This document shows, piece after piece, positions 6,845 to 16,395 of a stretch of DNA of 64,000 nucleotides. Location of the stretch: assembly GCA_013822085.1 (NCBI GenBank), contig PNJV01000007.1, positions 1-64,000 on the forward strand, in the 5' to 3' direction. A program made the translations under genes and the position numbers. A model generated the notes under the pieces. It was not told the DNA's origin. It searched no databases and saw only the letters and a list, made by a program, of their open reading frames with translations. Numbering within the stretch: position 1 is the first letter of the stretch; every line of letters begins with the position of its first letter. This DNA is from Isosphaera sp. Lineage in GTDB: Bacteria > Planctomycetota > Phycisphaerae > Phycisphaerales > UBA1924.

Positions 6845-6929
6845 CCTTGCGGGCGTGCGCGCCGCGGGCGTTCGCGGGGCGACGGCGGGCGTGAGCCGGG
6901 CCGGCGTGGGATCACAACGAGAGAGAGCC

Positions 6930-7721
6930 ATGAGCAAGGGCGCGGCAAAGAAGCGAACGAAAAAGGCTGGGACCAAGGCCCCGGCTGCTGCACGGGCCAA
7001 GGCCCCCAAGGTGGCCCCCGCCACGCCCGCCACGCCCCCCGCCCCCGCCACGCCCGCCCGCAGCGGCGCGCGGGCGACCAGCGGCGCGCCCAAGGCCAAG
7101 CCGGCCGGGGCCAAGCCGGCCAAGACCAAGCCCAACGCCGCGGCTAAATCCAGCGGTAAGTCCAAGGCCAAGCCCGCTGCGACTAAGGCCAAGCCGGCAG
7201 CGGCCAAGACGCCCGCCAGCGCCACGCCACGCAGCAAGACCAAGCCCACCAGCCCACCGGCGGTGACCGTGCGCGAGCGCCAGGAGGCCGCGGCCCGCGC
7301 GCTGGCGGTCGCGGCGGCGTGGTCGCTGCACGCCGACAAGTGCCAGGACGTGCGCGTGCTGGACGTGCGCGGGCTCTCCAGCGTCGCCGATTACTACGTG
7401 CTGGCCTCGGGCACCTCGGACCGGCAGATGCGCGGCGCCTCCGACAACGCCGCCGAGCTGGCCGGGCGTCTCGGGCACGAGGTGGTCCGCCAGGACATCG
7501 ACGACCGCACGACCTGGGTGGTGCTCGACTGCGTGGACGTGCTGGTGCACGTCTTCGAGCCGGCCACGCGGGCGCACTACGACCTGGAGACCATGTGGGG
7601 CGACGCCAAGGCCGTCGACTGGCGCGCCGAGCCCGGGGCGGCCCCCGGCGGGCCGGGGCGCGGCATCAGGGCGCGGCGCGTCGTCGAGCCGGCCCATGAG
7701 GGCGCCCCGGGCGAGGCCTAA
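6930..7721 (+). CDS. rsfS: Ribosomal silencing factor RsfS with histone-like tail
   Basis: 263 residues. RsfS binds ribosomal protein uL14 and blocks joining of the subunits when nutrients are scarce. The conserved domain occupies about residues 120-235, with LDVRGLSSVADYYVLASGTS, DDRTTWVVLDCVDVLVHVF and the typical ending YDLETMWGDAKAVDW. The first 115 residues are an extension of Lys, Ala and Pro repeats (AKPAGAKPAKTK-like), similar in composition to histone H1 tails and absent from most RsfS. ATG 6930 follows a GAGAGAGA purine stretch; an upstream in-frame ATG at 6855 lacks one. A further tail of 25 residues follows the domain. Lies 12 bases before panD. Confidence 0.88.
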   Translation: MSKGAAKKRTKKAGTKAPAAARAKAPKVAPATPATPPAPATPARSGARATSGAPKAKPAGAKPAKTKPNAAAKSSGKSKAKPAATKAKPAAAKTPASATPRSKTKPTSPPAVTVRERQEAAARALAVAAAWSLHADKCQDVRVLDVRGLSSVADYYVLASGTSDRQMRGASDNAAELAGRLGHEVVRQDIDDRTTWVVLDCVDVLVHVFEPATRAHYDLETMWGDAKAVDWRAEPGAAPGGPGRGIRARRVVEPAHEGAPGEA

Positions 7722-7733
7722 ACTGGCCACCTC

Positions 7734-8105
7734 ATGCTTCGCAAGGTGCTCTTTGGCAAGATCCACATGGCACGCGTCACGGCGTGCAGGCCCGAGTACG
7801 TCGGCTCGATCACCATCGACCAGGACCTGCTCGACGCGAGCGGGATCCGCGTCAGCGACGCGGTGGCGGTGGCCAACTGTCGCAACGGCGAGCGTTTCGA
7901 GACGTACGTCTTCCGCGGGGAGCGCGGGAGCGGCGTGATCGAGATCAACGGGGCCGCGGCCCACCTGGTCGAGCCCGGCGACCGCGTGATCGTGATGCAC
8001 TACGCGCTGATGACCGACGCCGAGTACCGCGAGCACCGCCCGCGCGTGGCCGTGATCGGCGAGGGCAACGCCATCGCCCAGCGGATCAGCTATGACCCGT
8101 CCTAG
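7734..8105 (+). CDS. panD: Aspartate 1-decarboxylase PanD
   Basis: 123 residues. Makes beta-alanine from aspartate for pantothenate and CoA synthesis. It is a pyruvoyl enzyme made by self-cleavage of a proenzyme at Gly24-Ser25, and that dipeptide is present at exactly those residues (PEYVGSITID). Other family features: MLRKVLFGKIHMARVT at the start, TYVFRGERGSGVIEINGAAAH, and the GDRVIVMHYALM strand near the end. Follows rsfS by 12 bases and overlaps aroB by 14 bases, which suggests coupled translation. Confidence 0.95.
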   Translation: MLRKVLFGKIHMARVTACRPEYVGSITIDQDLLDASGIRVSDAVAVANCRNGERFETYVFRGERGSGVIEINGAAAHLVEPGDRVIVMHYALMTDAEYREHRPRVAVIGEGNAIAQRISYDPS

Positions 8106-9312
8106 GGGCGCCCTGCGTGTGCGCGTGCGGGGCGAGGGCCCGCAGAGCTACTCGGTCATGGTCGGCAGCGGCCTGCTCGGGGCCGAGGGCGGGCCAATCG
8201 CCCGGCTTGCGCGCGGGCGCGACGCGGCGCTGATCGTGGCCGACGCGGGCCTGCCGACGCAGCTGGTGGAGGCCGTCGAGAGTCGCATCGCCGGCGTGGG
8301 CGTGCGCGTGGCTCGCGTGGGCGTGCGGGCCCAGGAGCGGCGCAAGAGCCTTGCCACGCTGGAGCTGGTGCTGGCCGCAGCGGCTGCGGCGCGGCTGGAC
8401 CGCGGCGGCCTGATCGTCGGGCTCGGGGGCGGCGTCGTGACGGACCTGGCCGGCTTCGCGGCGGCGGTCTACCGGCGCGGCGTGGACTCGGTGCTGTGCC
8501 CGACGACGCTGCTGGCGATGGTCGACGCCAGCGTCGGCGGCAAGACCGGGGTCAACATCGAGGTGGGGGCGGCGGGGACCGGCGCGGGTGCCCCCCGGCT
8601 GCTCAAGAACATGGCCGGCGCGTTCCATCACCCGCGCCTGGTTGTGTGCGACGTGGCGGCGCTGGCCTCGCTCTCGCTCCGCCAGCTGCGCGCGGGCCTG
8701 GCCGAGTGCCTCAAGCACGGGCTGGTCGGGGCGGGCGCAGCGGACGCCGGGCTGTGGGGCTTCACGCAGCGGGCGATCGACCGGCTGGCCCACGAGCCCT
8801 TGCACGAGCGCACGCTGGCGGCGCTGGTCGGGCGCCACGCGGCGTACAAGGCTCGCGTGGTGGCGGCCGACCCCAAGGAGCGCGCCCGCGGCGGGGCGGT
8901 CGGTCGCATGGCCCTCAACCTGGGCCACACCTTTGCCCACGCCATCGAGACCCTGCCCGGCCTGCGCTGGCCGGCGCCCGGCGGGGCCGGGCCGGCGGTG
9001 CGCGGCCCGCTCTTGCACGGCGAGGCGGTCGGCCTGGGGCTGATCGCTGCCGCGGACCTGGGCGAGTCGCTCCGGCGTGCCGAGCCGGGGCTGGCCCTGG
9101 CCGTCGAGGGAGCGCTCGGTCGCGCGGGCCTGCCGACGCGCGTCGGCGGCCTGCCCGCCAGCGACCAGGTGATCGACCGGATGCTCGACGACAAGAAGGT
9201 CCTCGGCGGCCGGCTGCGCGTGATCGTGCCGACGCGCGCCCGCCGGGCTGCGCTGATCGACGGGCCCGATCGAGGGCTTGTCGCGCGGGCCATCGACCGC
9301 TTGCGGGCCTGA
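8092..9312 (+). CDS. aroB: 3-dehydroquinate synthase AroB
   Basis: 406 residues. Second step of the shikimate pathway, an NAD- and zinc-dependent conversion of DAHP to 3-dehydroquinate. Recognised by LGGGVVTDLAGFAA (nucleotide binding), DASVGGKTGVN, LAECLKHGL, and the zinc ligands in NLGHTFAHAIE and LLHGEAVGLGL. About 40 residues longer than typical AroB, because of small Ala/Gly/Pro-rich insertions such as the one before RLLKNM and another before the LLHGE motif. The start lies inside panD in a different frame; no alternative start in better context is visible. Last gene of the lpxA-aroB cluster. Confidence 0.93.
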   Translation: MTRPRGALRVRVRGEGPQSYSVMVGSGLLGAEGGPIARLARGRDAALIVADAGLPTQLVEAVESRIAGVGVRVARVGVRAQERRKSLATLELVLAAAAAARLDRGGLIVGLGGGVVTDLAGFAAAVYRRGVDSVLCPTTLLAMVDASVGGKTGVNIEVGAAGTGAGAPRLLKNMAGAFHHPRLVVCDVAALASLSLRQLRAGLAECLKHGLVGAGAADAGLWGFTQRAIDRLAHEPLHERTLAALVGRHAAYKARVVAADPKERARGGAVGRMALNLGHTFAHAIETLPGLRWPAPGGAGPAVRGPLLHGEAVGLGLIAAADLGESLRRAEPGLALAVEGALGRAGLPTRVGGLPASDQVIDRMLDDKKVLGGRLRVIVPTRARRAALIDGPDRGLVARAIDRLRA

Positions 9313-9619: not shown

Positions 9620-11254
9620 GTGCGCGTGCGGGTCATCGCCATCATCAATCAAAAGGGCGGCTGCGGAAAAACGACCAGCGCGATCAACCTGGCGGGCTAC
9701 TTCGCCCGCACGGGGCAACGCACGCTGCTGGTGGACCTGGACCCGCAGGCGCACTGCGCCGCGGGGCTTGCGATCCCCGAGCAACGCATCGACGTGCAGA
9801 TCGGCGACGCGATGGCCTCGCCCGAGGGCGAGGCCGACCTCCAGCGCCTGCTGTGGCGCGTCACTCGCAACCTGGACCTGGCCCCCAGCACCGTCCGGCT
9901 GGCGGCGCTCGAGAGCGCCCGCGGCGGGCTGGCCGGCGCGCCGGGCGCCGAGCGACGCCTGGAGCGCGTCCTGTCGCGCATGGCCGACCGCTACGACATC
10001 GCGGTGATCGACTGCGGGCCGGCCATCGGGGTGCTCACGTTCAACGCGCTGGTCGCTGCGACCGAGGTGCTCATCCCCGTCGAAACGGGCTTCTTCGCCC
10101 TCCAGGGCGCAGCCAAGCAGGCCAGTACTATCAAGGCGCTGGGCAAGCGCCTGGGCGCCACGCCGGTCCACCGCCTCGCCGCGGTGATGCACGCAGCGGA
10201 GAACCCGCTGGCACGCGACGTCCTGGCCGAGCTGCGCCGCCGGTTCCCTGATCAGGTGGCCCCGGTGGTCATCCGTCTGGACCCGCGCCTGCGCGAGGCC
10301 GTCTCGTTCGGCCAGCCCGTGATGGAGTACGCGCCCACGTCCGACGGCGCCCAGGACTACGCAGCGCTGGGTCAGTGGCTCCTCGACCACCCGCCGAGCC
10401 CCCGGCCCGAGCACGGCGCAGCGCCCGCCGACACGCCGGCGACCGGCGGCCCCAGCGAGGTCCGCGTCGTCCCCACAGCCGCGTCGGCGCTGCTGGGCGA
10501 GGCACGCGCGCTCGCCGCTACCGCAGCGCGCCCAAGCGAACGCGCCGAGCCGGACAGCCCCGGCATGGTCCCCGTGGTCTCGACGGGCGGCGTCATCTCG
10601 CGCGCCGCGGCCCCGCGGGCCGAGGTCAAGCCCTTTCCACCCGCCCCATCCCCCGCCCCCGGCGCTCGGCCGGCTCCCGCGGGAGCGCTCACCGAGGCGG
10701 AGCCCTCGCTGCGCCGAAACGGCCAGCGTCAAGCCGAGGAGCAGGAGCCCGACCTCGGGCAGGCCATCAGCGCGCTGATCCACCAGCGCACCGAGGAGCT
10801 CGCCCGGCGTGTGGCGGCCCTGACCGCCACGCCCAGCACGCTCGCCGCACCCACGCCCGATGCGCTCGGCGCGGCGCACACAGCGACCGCCGCCGGCGCG
10901 TCCTCGGGCACGCTGGTCCTGGTCAGCGACGAGCCGGCAGCGGCCAGCACGCAGGCCGCCGTCCCCGCGACGCTCTTCGGGGCCCGCGTGACAGCGCGCG
11001 GTGTGCTCTTTGTTCAACCGATGGACGCCGGGACCGCCGTGAGCGTCGCCGGGAGCTTCAACGGCTGGTCCGCCGACGCCACCCCGCTGCGCCCCGATCC
11101 ACACACGGGTGTGCGTCAGGCGTTCGTCGCGGTGCCGGCGGGCCGGCACGAGTACCGCCTGGTCATCGACGGCGTGTGGGCGGCCGACCCGTTCAACCCC
11201 CATCAGGCCGACAACCCCTTCGGCGACCGCAACAGCGTCCTGGACGTGGGCTGA
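9620..11254 (+). CDS. ParA ATPase fused to a glycogen-binding (CBM48-like) domain
   Basis: 544 residues with an unusual architecture. Residues 1-260 are a ParA/Soj ATPase: deviant Walker A QKGGCGKTT (Lys12 and Lys17), LLVDLDPQAHC, Walker B region VIDCGPAIGV, and the ALQGAAK and RLAAVMH strands. Residues 260-450 are a low-complexity Pro/Ala/Ser linker. Residues 451-544 match the AMPK-beta/isoamylase N-terminal glycogen-binding fold, with VSVAGSFNGWS, TPLRPDPHTG, VPAGRHEYRLVIDG and a final DPFNPHQADNPFGDRNS. ParA proteins pattern cargo on DNA or membranes; the C-terminal domain suggests that a polysaccharide such as glycogen is the cargo or surface. GTG 9626 fits the GGAG at 9615 better than GTG 9620. 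The next gene, 54 bases on, is its likely partner. The function as a unit is inferred. Confidence 0.8.
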   Translation: MRVRVIAIINQKGGCGKTTSAINLAGYFARTGQRTLLVDLDPQAHCAAGLAIPEQRIDVQIGDAMASPEGEADLQRLLWRVTRNLDLAPSTVRLAALESARGGLAGAPGAERRLERVLSRMADRYDIAVIDCGPAIGVLTFNALVAATEVLIPVETGFFALQGAAKQASTIKALGKRLGATPVHRLAAVMHAAENPLARDVLAELRRRFPDQVAPVVIRLDPRLREAVSFGQPVMEYAPTSDGAQDYAALGQWLLDHPPSPRPEHGAAPADTPATGGPSEVRVVPTAASALLGEARALAATAARPSERAEPDSPGMVPVVSTGGVISRAAAPRAEVKPFPPAPSPAPGARPAPAGALTEAEPSLRRNGQRQAEEQEPDLGQAISALIHQRTEELARRVAALTATPSTLAAPTPDALGAAHTATAAGASSGTLVLVSDEPAAASTQAAVPATLFGARVTARGVLFVQPMDAGTAVSVAGSFNGWSADATPLRPDPHTGVRQAFVAVPAGRHEYRLVIDGVWAADPFNPHQADNPFGDRNSVLDVG

Positions 11255-11308: not shown

Positions 11309-12880
11309 ATGTTCGACGATCCCAGCCAGGTCAGGCGCAGCGACGGCCCGTCGTCTCCCAGCGGGCCCGGCGGCTTCCCCCGCCTGCGCACCGACGACGC
11401 CAACGACCCCTACGACCTGCTCACCGACCTGTTCGTCGGCCCGGAGCCGACCAGCGCGCCCGAGCCCCGCGCGCCGCTGCCCGCCAGCGAGAGCGCTCCC
11501 CCGCTGCGCAACGAGCCGGGCCCGATCGCGCTGGGCAATCCCTCCGCCGTGCCCGAACCTGCTCGTGTGACGCGCGAGGCGCCCGCGCACGGCTCCCAGC
11601 CCCGACGCGGGACCGACGGCGGCGACGGCGTGCGCTGCCGCGGGGCCACGGTCGAGCTGCTCATCGCCGGCAACCTCCCGACGCTCGCTGCGGCGTGGGT
11701 CAGCCAGTACGCGCGCTCCGCTGCGGCACTCGCCGGCGAGCCGGTGGCGTTGGTCCGGCTGACGGGCGCCACGCTGCGCGTGGAGATCCACGGCGAACCG
11801 GCGACGCTCGCCAGCCAGGCCACCGAACGCGCCGCGCTGCGAGCCGCTGCGCTGTGCTGCCGCAGGGTGATCGTCCACGGCGAGGCGGACACGGCGCTGG
11901 CCGCGGCCTGCGGCGACGGCGAGCACCAGCCCGACGAGGTCTCGGTCCTCTTCGGGTGCGACGAGGCCGGCGTGGTCTCGGCCTATCGCGCAGTCAAGCG
12001 GCTCGCTGCGGCGTGGTCGCGGGCGGGCGGGGCGGGACCGAGCCAGAGCGGGGCGGGGGCAGGAGAGGCGGAGTTGCCGGCGCGCCCTCGCGGCGTGACG
12101 CTGGTACCGATCGGCTCTGCCGCCGCCAAGGCCGCGCAGGCCTCCCGCCGCATCGAGGACGCGGCACGGTCGTTCCTGACCGCCACCGTCCGCTGCACCG
12201 CGCCGATCGAGCGCGTGACCGCTGGGGCGCCGGCTCGGCCGCTGCTGGACTCCGCGGCCACGCTCTCGCTGATCGATGTGCTGGCGGCTCTGCGCCAGGC
12301 TGCCCCCGGCACCTCGGCCCAGCGTCCGGGTGAGCCCGACGCCCCAGAGCCGGCCCCACCAGAGCCGGCCCCCCAGGCGCGCTCGGTCGTGACGCGTGCG
12401 GGAGCGCCGCTGCTCGACGCTGTGCCCGCCACTCGCTCGGACCCCGCCCGCTCCGCGCCGGCGCACGCTGCGACACGCCCAACGCACCAGCCCATGAAGC
12501 ACACGCACGCCACAGCCCCGCTGTCCTCGTCGCTGAGCGAACTGATCGACGCCGACGGGCCGCTTGTCCTGCTCCGGGCCCGCTGCCCGCACGCGCCCGG
12601 CGTCGAGCTGGCCCTCGACGCGATGGGCACCCTCCACGCGCTGCGCGACGACACCGCCCACGACGCGGTCGCTGACCTGGTCGCGGCCCTGGGGTGGGCC
12701 GCTGAGCACGCCGCTGTGCTCTCGCTGACAACGACCGAGCCGGTGGACACCGCTGCGGCGCCCGTGGGGCACTTCTTCACGCGGCGTCCGTCGGAGGCCC
12801 GCCGGCTGGTGCCCGGCTCGGTCCGCGTGCACGCGCTGGCGCAGACGCGCTCGGGCGAGTGGGCCGCCGTCGAGCTCTGA
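11309..12880 (+). CDS. Uncharacterised partner of the ParA fusion, possibly a degenerate MinD/FlhG-like protein
   Basis: 523 residues, not recognised as a named family. The first 105 residues and a stretch near 360-405 are Pro/Ala-rich linkers. The segment of about residues 110-310 is compact and shows a MinD/FlhG-like rhythm: strand VELLIAGNLPTL where a P-loop would lie but without GKGGxGKT, then EPVALVRLTG, later VSVLFGCDEAGVVSAYRAVKRL like the AYxLIK helix of MinD, and VTLVPIGSAAAKAAQASRRI like the following strand and helix. If so it is a nucleotide-binding-dead paralogue that could pair with the ParA upstream. The C-terminal 110 residues form a second ordered region (LSELIDADGPLVLLRARC). 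The fold assignment is inference; the operon with the ParA fusion is evident. Confidence 0.5.
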   Translation: MFDDPSQVRRSDGPSSPSGPGGFPRLRTDDANDPYDLLTDLFVGPEPTSAPEPRAPLPASESAPPLRNEPGPIALGNPSAVPEPARVTREAPAHGSQPRRGTDGGDGVRCRGATVELLIAGNLPTLAAAWVSQYARSAAALAGEPVALVRLTGATLRVEIHGEPATLASQATERAALRAAALCCRRVIVHGEADTALAAACGDGEHQPDEVSVLFGCDEAGVVSAYRAVKRLAAAWSRAGGAGPSQSGAGAGEAELPARPRGVTLVPIGSAAAKAAQASRRIEDAARSFLTATVRCTAPIERVTAGAPARPLLDSAATLSLIDVLAALRQAAPGTSAQRPGEPDAPEPAPPEPAPQARSVVTRAGAPLLDAVPATRSDPARSAPAHAATRPTHQPMKHTHATAPLSSSLSELIDADGPLVLLRARCPHAPGVELALDAMGTLHALRDDTAHDAVADLVAALGWAAEHAAVLSLTTTEPVDTAAAPVGHFFTRRPSEARRLVPGSVRVHALAQTRSGEWAAVEL

Positions 12881-13012: not shown

Positions 13013-14647
13013 TCAGCGGTAGAGGTTGGTCGCCTCGGTCTCCTCGACCGGGGTGGTGAACTGGTCGGAGGTCATGATGATCTTGAAGCGGACGTCGCCG
13101 GGGTTTGCGGCCTTGACGGTGATGCGCCAGGCGGCCTTGGCCCCGGGGGCGAGCGAGGCGAGCGGCGCGAAGGTGACGCGGGCGCCCGAGGCGGAGCCGG
13201 CCGTCACGCCCGAGGCGCTGACGAACTGCTGCTGACCGGGCAGGTCGGCCAGGATGCGGATGCCGGTGCCCGGGGCCGAGCCCTGGTTGGTGACCTCGAT
13301 GACGTAGGTGGTCTCGGCGCCGACCTCGATCGGGTCCTCGGTGTCGATGACCTCAAGGAGGATGGCGGGGATGCCCGAGACGACGGTCTGGCAGCTGGTG
13401 TTGACGGGGTTTGCGCACTCGCCGCCGGCGGTGGCCTCCACGCGGTAGGAGCCGATCGCGCCGGGCTTGACCGAGGCGCGGACGACGCGCTCCTGGCCCG
13501 CCGTCAGCGTGCCGACGTTGTAGCGGATCGTCGAGCCGGCCACGGTGCCGCCCTCGACGGCGCCCTGCACGGTCATGTTCGCCGGGAGCGAGACCTCCAC
13601 GACGGTGTTCTCGGAGGGGGCGTCGCCTGTGTTGCGCACCGTGAAGGCGTAGGTGCCGGTGCGGCCGGCGAAGAGGTTCTCGGTGCACTGGGCCGTGATG
13701 GCCAGGACCGGCTGGCGCACGACGGTGGTCGTGGCCGGTGCCGAGGCGGTCAGGCCGCCGGCGGAGCTGGCCTGGGCCGGGCTGGAGAAGGTCCCGGTGC
13801 GCGCGGCCTTGGCCGTGACGCGGACGGTGCGGGACTGCCCGGCGGCCAGGTCGCCCACATCGACGTCGATGCTCTGCTGGTCGTCGGTGGTCACCAGGCC
13901 CTGCGGGAAGGTGTCGCGCAGGCGGACGCCCTCGGCCACGCCCGAGCCGGTGTTGGTCACGACGTACTCGAGCGTGAGCACGTCGCAAAGCAGGAGCTGG
14001 GCCTGGGCGGTCTTGGTCAGGGCCAGGGCCGGCTGGACGACCAGGACGTTGGCGCACAGCACGTTGTTGTACGCCACGGCCAGGCAGATGCTCGAATCGC
14101 CCACGCTCTCGGCCCGGCTGGTCACGCGGATGTCACGCGTGGAGCGGGCGGGCAGGTTGCCCAGGAGCCAGACCGTGTCGCCGTCGGGCGCACGGGTGAA
14201 GGCCGGCTCGGAGCGGATGGGGGTCAGGTTCGTGATGCTCTCGGAGTTGAGGATCACGTTCTGGAGCTCGTTGTTGGTCAGGTTCGTGACCTGGATGTCG
14301 TAGGTGAACTCTTGGCCGGCGCGGACCTCGCGCGGCATGTTCACCGCGACCAGCACGGCGCTGGTGCGCTCGTCGCCGGTCGGGAACGCCAGCCGGGTGC
14401 CGCTGGAGCCGACCGGGCTGGTCCGCCGGCGGGGGGCCTCAGGTGCGACGGGGGCGGGCGCAGCGACGGGGGCCGGCGACGGGGTGCGGGCCTGGATCAG
14501 CGTGCCGCCGCCGCTGGTGGGCGACTCGGACGCCGGGCCGGGCGGGACGCTGCCGGGGCGCTGCGGCTGGGCGCAGCCCACCAGCAGCGCCGCCACGGCG
14601 CTCAGGGCCGTAAACACAAAGGTACAAGATCGGGTCCGCGTGGTCAT
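13013..14647 (-). CDS. OmcB-like lipoprotein with DUF11 repeats
   Basis: 544 residues. The N-terminus is a lipoprotein signal with lipobox LLVGC, so the mature protein should be lipid-anchored. After a Pro/Ser-rich linker come at least four beta-sandwich repeats of the DUF11/CARDB-like type: FTYDIQVTNLTN, LEYVVTNTGSG, YAFTVRNTGDAP and TYVIEVTNQGSAPGTGI. Six cysteines besides the lipobox occur at similar places in the repeats (SSICLAV, ANVLCANV, LLLCDVL, TAQCTENL, GGECANP, NTSCQTV), recalling the disulfide-linked OmcB protein of chlamydiae, which belong to the same superphylum. A strong AGGAGG lies 8 nt before ATG 14647. Likely an abundant structural envelope protein crosslinked by disulfides; that role is inferred. 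Confidence 0.75.
   Translation of the reverse strand: MTTRTRSCTFVFTALSAVAALLVGCAQPQRPGSVPPGPASESPTSGGGTLIQARTPSPAPVAAPAPVAPEAPRRRTSPVGSSGTRLAFPTGDERTSAVLVAVNMPREVRAGQEFTYDIQVTNLTNNELQNVILNSESITNLTPIRSEPAFTRAPDGDTVWLLGNLPARSTRDIRVTSRAESVGDSSICLAVAYNNVLCANVLVVQPALALTKTAQAQLLLCDVLTLEYVVTNTGSGVAEGVRLRDTFPQGLVTTDDQQSIDVDVGDLAAGQSRTVRVTAKAARTGTFSSPAQASSAGGLTASAPATTTVVRQPVLAITAQCTENLFAGRTGTYAFTVRNTGDAPSENTVVEVSLPANMTVQGAVEGGTVAGSTIRYNVGTLTAGQERVVRASVKPGAIGSYRVEATAGGECANPVNTSCQTVVSGIPAILLEVIDTEDPIEVGAETTYVIEVTNQGSAPGTGIRILADLPGQQQFVSASGVTAGSASGARVTFAPLASLAPGAKAAWRITVKAANPGDVRFKIIMTSDQFTTPVEETEATNLYR

Positions 14648-14955: not shown

Positions 14956-16395
<1,440 letters not shown>

Follow-up and report, generated by a model that had tools for sequence, protein, structure and literature searches.

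The locus raises the question of why a ParA-type partition ATPase should end in a domain resembling the glycogen-binding module of AMPK beta. An open reading frame at positions 9620-11254 of the forward strand, encoding 544 aa, had been predicted to join a deviant Walker A and ParA N-terminus to such a module, and it was present as given in the window (the whole 64,000-nucleotide stretch of DNA analysed here). Pfam searches placed an AAA_31 match at residues 4-177 (1.6e-40) and an AMPK1_CBM match (PF16561) at residues 470-543 (38.8 bits, against a cut-off of 26.8), and the C-terminal 90 residues alone retrieved AMPK beta-2 and beta-1 from the PDB at 5.7e-8. In an AlphaFold model built from 39 homologues, pLDDT exceeded 90 across nearly all of the ParA domain and reached 94-98 at residues 450-544; the linker joining the two was largely unstructured in the model, and its length differed among homologues. 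A Foldseek search with the full model, in which the matches listed were ParA structures, aligned the ATPase with Soj/ParA at an E value of 1.4e-26 and TMt of 0.93-0.94. K12, K17, D41 (DPQ) and D131 (IDC) were invariant in the 39 homologues, the signature lysine of the deviant Walker A being retained. On basic residues for non-specific DNA binding, alignment to an approximate Soj sequence gave a lead only: most members have a basic residue in the LREA/LKEA segment, and one Omnitrophota member has Thr. The domain matches and the model confirmed that the frame encodes a Soj-type ParA, a disordered linker and a confidently modelled AMPK-beta-type carbohydrate-binding module, and both ends of the original prediction were therefore upheld. 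Since homologues begin at the equivalent of window codon 3 (GTG), the true start may be at 9626, 6 bases downstream.

Table 1. Positions in the window of the fusion, its domains and the adjacent genes.
Feature	Positions	Strand	Basis
aroB (3-dehydroquinate synthase), upstream neighbour	8092..9312	+	Pfam; same strand in 24/40 relatives
ParA/Soj-type ATPase domain, residues 1-257	9620..10390	+	AAA_31, Foldseek, invariant catalytic residues
Deviant Walker A, NQKGGCGKTT	9647-9676	+	Within ParA domain
Pro/Ala-rich low-confidence linker, with predicted helices at residues 287-302 and 379-402	10391..10966	+	pLDDT mostly <65 outside helices
AMPK-beta-type carbohydrate-binding module, residues 450-544	10967..11251	+	PF16561, PDB matches, pLDDT, contact residues
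Gene X, Walker-less, FlhG/FleN-like, 523 aa	11309..12880	+	Directly downstream in 32/40 relatives
N-terminal motif of gene X, PYDLLTDLFVG (family consensus YDALADLFLG; YDxLADLFLG)	11408..11440	+	Conserved in family alignment
FlhG/FleN/MinD-like domain of gene X, residues 112-335	11642..12313	+	Profile and Foldseek
Conserved C-terminal alpha/beta domain of gene X	12518..12877	+	pLDDT mostly 86-97 from residue 411

Taxonomic spread, which had been named as a check on the fusion, proved wide, with recurrence across the Phycisphaerae (Planctomycetota) and the Omnitrophota. Among 40 order-level loci, taken around the best match in each relative, the C-terminal module stood in the same frame in 34 and was missing from six, three of which retained gene X. 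Fusion-type module matches were found in 114 of 198 genomes of a larger Phycisphaerae sample (at ≤1e-20) and in 124 of 145 Omnitrophota genomes (at 1e-15), both counts including some free-standing modules. When frames were read directly, the ParA Walker A and the module lay in one frame in all 20 sampled loci from other Phycisphaerae and in all 20 from Omnitrophota. Because the fusion occurs in more than 70 loci of independent genomes, it is neither a chance arrangement nor the product of a chimeric contig. One gammaproteobacterial MAG also carries a ParA-CBM fusion (L144:2261-6243), directly downstream of a MerR-type regulator gene and with a GH100 neutral invertase nearby; this occurrence may be a binning error.

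In a tree of ParA domains, the fusion family separated with support of 0.995 both from plasmid ParAs and from the Soj-type paralogs that its genomes also encode, indicating one old family, and the module-less members nested within the order-level fusion group. The simplest reading is a single old fusion followed by later losses. Compared with ParA/Soj of ParABS, the fusion shares the fold, the deviant Walker A and the Walker A-prime and B residues, but has a long C-terminal extension bearing the carbohydrate-binding module and a Cys (KGGCGKTT) where ParA/Soj has Val. It also differs in having a Walker-less FlhG-like protein as its partner in place of an adjacent ParB. No ParB gene adjoined the fusion in the window genome or the relatives searched, and ParB was present elsewhere in the genome of every relative tested, so chromosome partition is probably served separately. 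In the window genome ParB lies on another contig (C35:16093-16392), where it is not adjacent in this assembly to the genome's own Soj-type ParA (KGGVGKTT; L104:9270-10304, minus strand, contig C25), which lies near a MurJ-like gene.

We then considered whether the module retains a binding site. In rat AMPK beta-1, the residues that touch beta-cyclodextrin or on which glycogen binding depends are W100, K126, W133, L146, T148 and N150, and the contacts have been examined by mutagenesis (PMC2642990, PMC4032982). By alignment, W100, K126, W133, L146 and N150 correspond to W483, R513, W520, F534 and N538 of the fusion, the changes from Lys to Arg and from Leu to Phe being conservative. Of 122 fusion homologues, 121 have the first Trp and 119 have the second. 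The K126 position was Arg or Lys in nearly all (Arg in most, where AMPK beta has Lys) and the N150 position was Asn or Asp in most. This residue pattern is that of a retained binding site rather than a structural remnant, and the module may bind alpha-glucan. Both the fold and the site residues, carbohydrate-contacting aromatics among them, were thus found conserved through the class and in a second phylum, where another fold or the lack of such aromatics would have spoken against the original prediction. The nearest known relative is the AMPK beta glycogen-binding module (PF16561/CBM48 group), above whose cut-off the fusion module scores and whose glucan-contact residues it keeps; unlike AMPK beta in its kinase complex, however, the module here is joined to a ParA ATPase. 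Small free-standing proteins with little beyond an AMPK-type module were also seen in genomes that carry the fusion, as at L103:8683-8904 on the minus strand (contig C6:63683-63904 of the window genome) and in many Omnitrophota frames of about 85-140 aa. Such proteins could be competitors of the fusion for a common glucan, or could bridge it.

Inspection of the flanking genes revealed a partner that the original prediction did not include. Gene X starts 54 bases past the fusion; in 32 of 40 relatives it is the next gene downstream and reads in the same direction, indicating a conserved operon partner that is probably co-transcribed with the fusion. It is a fast-evolving sequence, with a mean column identity of 21% in the family alignment. 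No Pfam or NCBIfam family matched it, no convincing Pfam match was obtained for 32 family members, and its C-terminal alpha/beta domain had no match in the PDB or Pfam. A gene X profile searched against the PDB placed Pseudomonas FleN and then other FlhG-type proteins on top at an E value of 0.01, and FlhG/FleN likewise made up the seven Foldseek matches of the gene X model with E <1e-3 (best 6.7e-5), at low TM-scores. FlhG/FleN is therefore the nearest fold and the nearest profile, but gene X lacks Walker A (the P-loop position reads GxLPxxAxxW in the family alignment), carries a short motif in its N-terminal part and a further domain at its C-terminal end, and does not lie in a flagellar locus. 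Distant forms were present in 5 of 20 loci from other Phycisphaerae, with none detected in the remainder. Gene X is new here and constitutes a second undescribed protein family in these poorly studied phyla.

The surroundings of the two genes contained further frames. A ClpX homologue on the opposite strand (14959-16395, minus) stays near the fusion in 13 of 40 relatives, and a DUF11-repeat protein (13016-14647, minus) weakly matched the family of chlamydial cysteine-rich outer-membrane proteins. Upstream, an RsfS frame (6855-7721, plus) extends about 150 residues ahead of the RsfS domain from its putative start codon.

The Omnitrophota loci had a different neighbourhood. A GH57 (alpha-glucan) gene lay about 2 kb upstream of the fusion on the same strand in 10 of 20 loci, and a small related gene stood just upstream of the fusion in 14 of 20. 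The ten such upstream proteins listed shared N-terminal motifs such as KKEIYEHLAKIYLD, a hydrophobic segment and a beta-rich C-terminal part weakly similar to sugar-binding families. In some loci the gene after the fusion encoded a short protein that by eye resembled the FlhG-like form; in about 12 of 20, a Lys-rich protein followed, with a C-terminal domain weakly like the peptidase U32 C-terminal domain (L268:10141-10551, L276:10196-10654 and L275:10461-10973). We scanned all ORFs of at least 100 aa in the 20 loci for the gene X motif. With BLOSUM-averaged scoring, the N-terminal region of an adjacent gene ranked first in nine loci, where that gene lay upstream, and second in three (p = 0.0016 for adjacent versus other ORFs, among loci that are related to each other), whereas weak-pseudocount scoring put the adjacent motif-bearing gene on top in just two of 20. 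The two scans differed in scoring alone, and the BLOSUM-averaged one was run after the other result had been seen. Given this choice of scoring and the relatedness of the loci, a docking motif common to gene X and an otherwise unrelated Omnitrophota membrane protein is suggestive only.

To relate the fusion to glucan metabolism, we searched for four enzyme families, namely GT5, GlgB, phosphorylase and GH57. The window genome had matches to GlgB (828.8 bits), GH57, phosphorylase and GT5, and most fusion-bearing relatives, including nearly all fusion-bearing Phycisphaerales, had at least one of the four, with none found in the fusion-bearing drafts G008 and G031. Several genomes without the module still had glucan enzymes, and loss of the module did not track loss of the enzymes. 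Co-occurrence was accordingly set aside as an uninformative test of function, because nearly every relative has some of the enzymes and the rare exceptions occur on either side. In none of 60 Phycisphaerae loci did a glucan gene lie within about 10 kb of the fusion; in view of this and of the missing co-variation, it is the binding site and the neighbourhood in Omnitrophota that carry the glycogen reading. The link of the fusion to alpha-glucan metabolism is indirect but real. The proposal of glycogen positioning or sensing thus held in part: the glycogen link gained from the Omnitrophota GH57 genes, while positioning drew no support from the Phycisphaerae neighbourhoods or from module loss.

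Taken together, our preferred reading, tentatively held and a little short of an even chance, is that a ParA patterning ATPase with its own glucan module acts with gene X in the spacing, partition or local control of alpha-glucan particles. By analogy with its family, the ATP-bound ParA dimer would bind the nucleoid, and the AMPK-type module, tethered by its long flexible linker, would grip an alpha-glucan such as glycogen, either directly as cargo or as a signal; alpha-glucan in either role would be without precedent. The N-terminal motif of gene X may contact the ParA dimer much as ParB and MinE do with their N-termini, its Walker-less FlhG-like domain may regulate the ATPase cycle, and, as in the ParA/MinD family, an N-terminal peptide of the partner would stimulate hydrolysis. 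In Omnitrophota, the membrane protein with the similar N-terminal motif may serve as the partner. An N-terminal peptide of ParB stimulates hydrolysis by ParA (PMC12462528), and other ParA/MinD partners likewise act through such a peptide (PMC10241942). The expected outcome would be alpha-glucan particles that are spaced, partitioned or locally controlled.

This reading is supported by the catalytic residues and Soj fold, the Trp pair, the age of the family, the adjacency of gene X and its likeness to FlhG/FleN by two methods, together with the Omnitrophota GH57 gene, the glucan enzymes of the window genome and the location of ParB elsewhere. Counterpoints to positioning are the Phycisphaerae fusions with no glucan gene near them, the two drafts without glucan enzymes, the six module losses with gene X kept in three, and the failure to detect gene X beside the fusion in most Phycisphaerae outside the Phycisphaerales. 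ParA-family ATPases that position non-DNA cargo are already known. McdAB and related ParA/MinD cargo systems resemble the present one, in which a ParA-family ATPase is likewise paired with a dedicated neighbouring gene and is proposed to act on a cargo other than DNA (PMC6328274, PMC10241942). In McdAB, however, the partner McdB contacts the cargo, whereas here the predicted glucan-binding module is on the ATPase itself; and unlike in carboxysome positioning, no microcompartment is implicated.

A serious rival, only somewhat less likely, is that the protein senses glucan state, with module-bound glucan allosterically controlling a ParA/gene X switch, as glycogen inhibits AMPK. The switch would then regulate metabolism, transcription or an envelope machine, as FlhG/FleN and BcsQ do with their own targets. 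In favour of this rival, glycogen can act through the AMPK-beta module to regulate the kinase and not merely to localise it (PMC2642990). FleN/FlhG, the proteins that the partner resembles, act both in regulation and in positioning, and a MerR regulator gene directly precedes the fusion in the gammaproteobacterial MAG. BcsQ of cellulose secretion is likewise a ParA/MinD-like ATPase tied to a polysaccharide system, and the ParA domain of the fusion scored on BcsQ models (TIGR03371). That score was nevertheless well under the curated cut-off (86.3 versus 157.85 bits), leading us to reject BcsQ membership; the neighbours examined included no bcs genes, and no regulated target was linked to the Phycisphaerae fusion locus. 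To our knowledge, BcsQ has no carbohydrate-binding module.

It is also conceivable, if improbable, that the likeness to glycogen modules misleads and the ligand is not an alpha-glucan but, for example, a precursor of a cell-envelope glycan or another protein. Such a ligand would suit a module that does not co-vary with glucan enzymes and whose N150 position is Asp in 15 of 20 Omnitrophota. The Omnitrophota neighbours would suit it as well: Alginate_exp outer-membrane proteins, the membrane protein with its weakly sugar-binding-like C-terminal part and, by eye, a run of division/cell-wall-type genes just downstream of one fusion. In most members, however, all five glucan-contact positions are either retained or altered conservatively, and the two stacking Trp residues are near-invariant over two phyla. 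Finally, an ordinary chromosome-partition ParA with a decorative C-terminal domain would account for the Soj-like ATPase domain but is very improbable and was rejected, given the split from coexisting Soj-type paralogs, the ParB located elsewhere and a module maintained over a class and a phylum.

We found no description of a ParA-CBM or glycogen-partition system in the open-access literature, and the module, partner and proposed cargo of the fusion are undescribed in the literature searched. The preferred positioning reading may, in its fullest form, which we consider doubtful, represent the first ParA-type partitioner or spacer of a carbohydrate store; it would carry its own glycogen-binding module, pair with a Walker-less regulator of the FlhG type, date far back in both Phycisphaerae and Omnitrophota, and recruit partners by a shared N-terminal docking motif. 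We know of no bacterial system that places glycogen or shares it out at division, and the glucan module built into this ParA makes such placement or sharing directly testable. Were the fusion limited to sensing glucan, bacteria would have in it an equivalent of AMPK's glycogen switch, built on a patterning ATPase. The fusion and its usually adjacent partner gene thus suggest that some bacteria place or sense stored carbohydrate by a new kind of mechanism.
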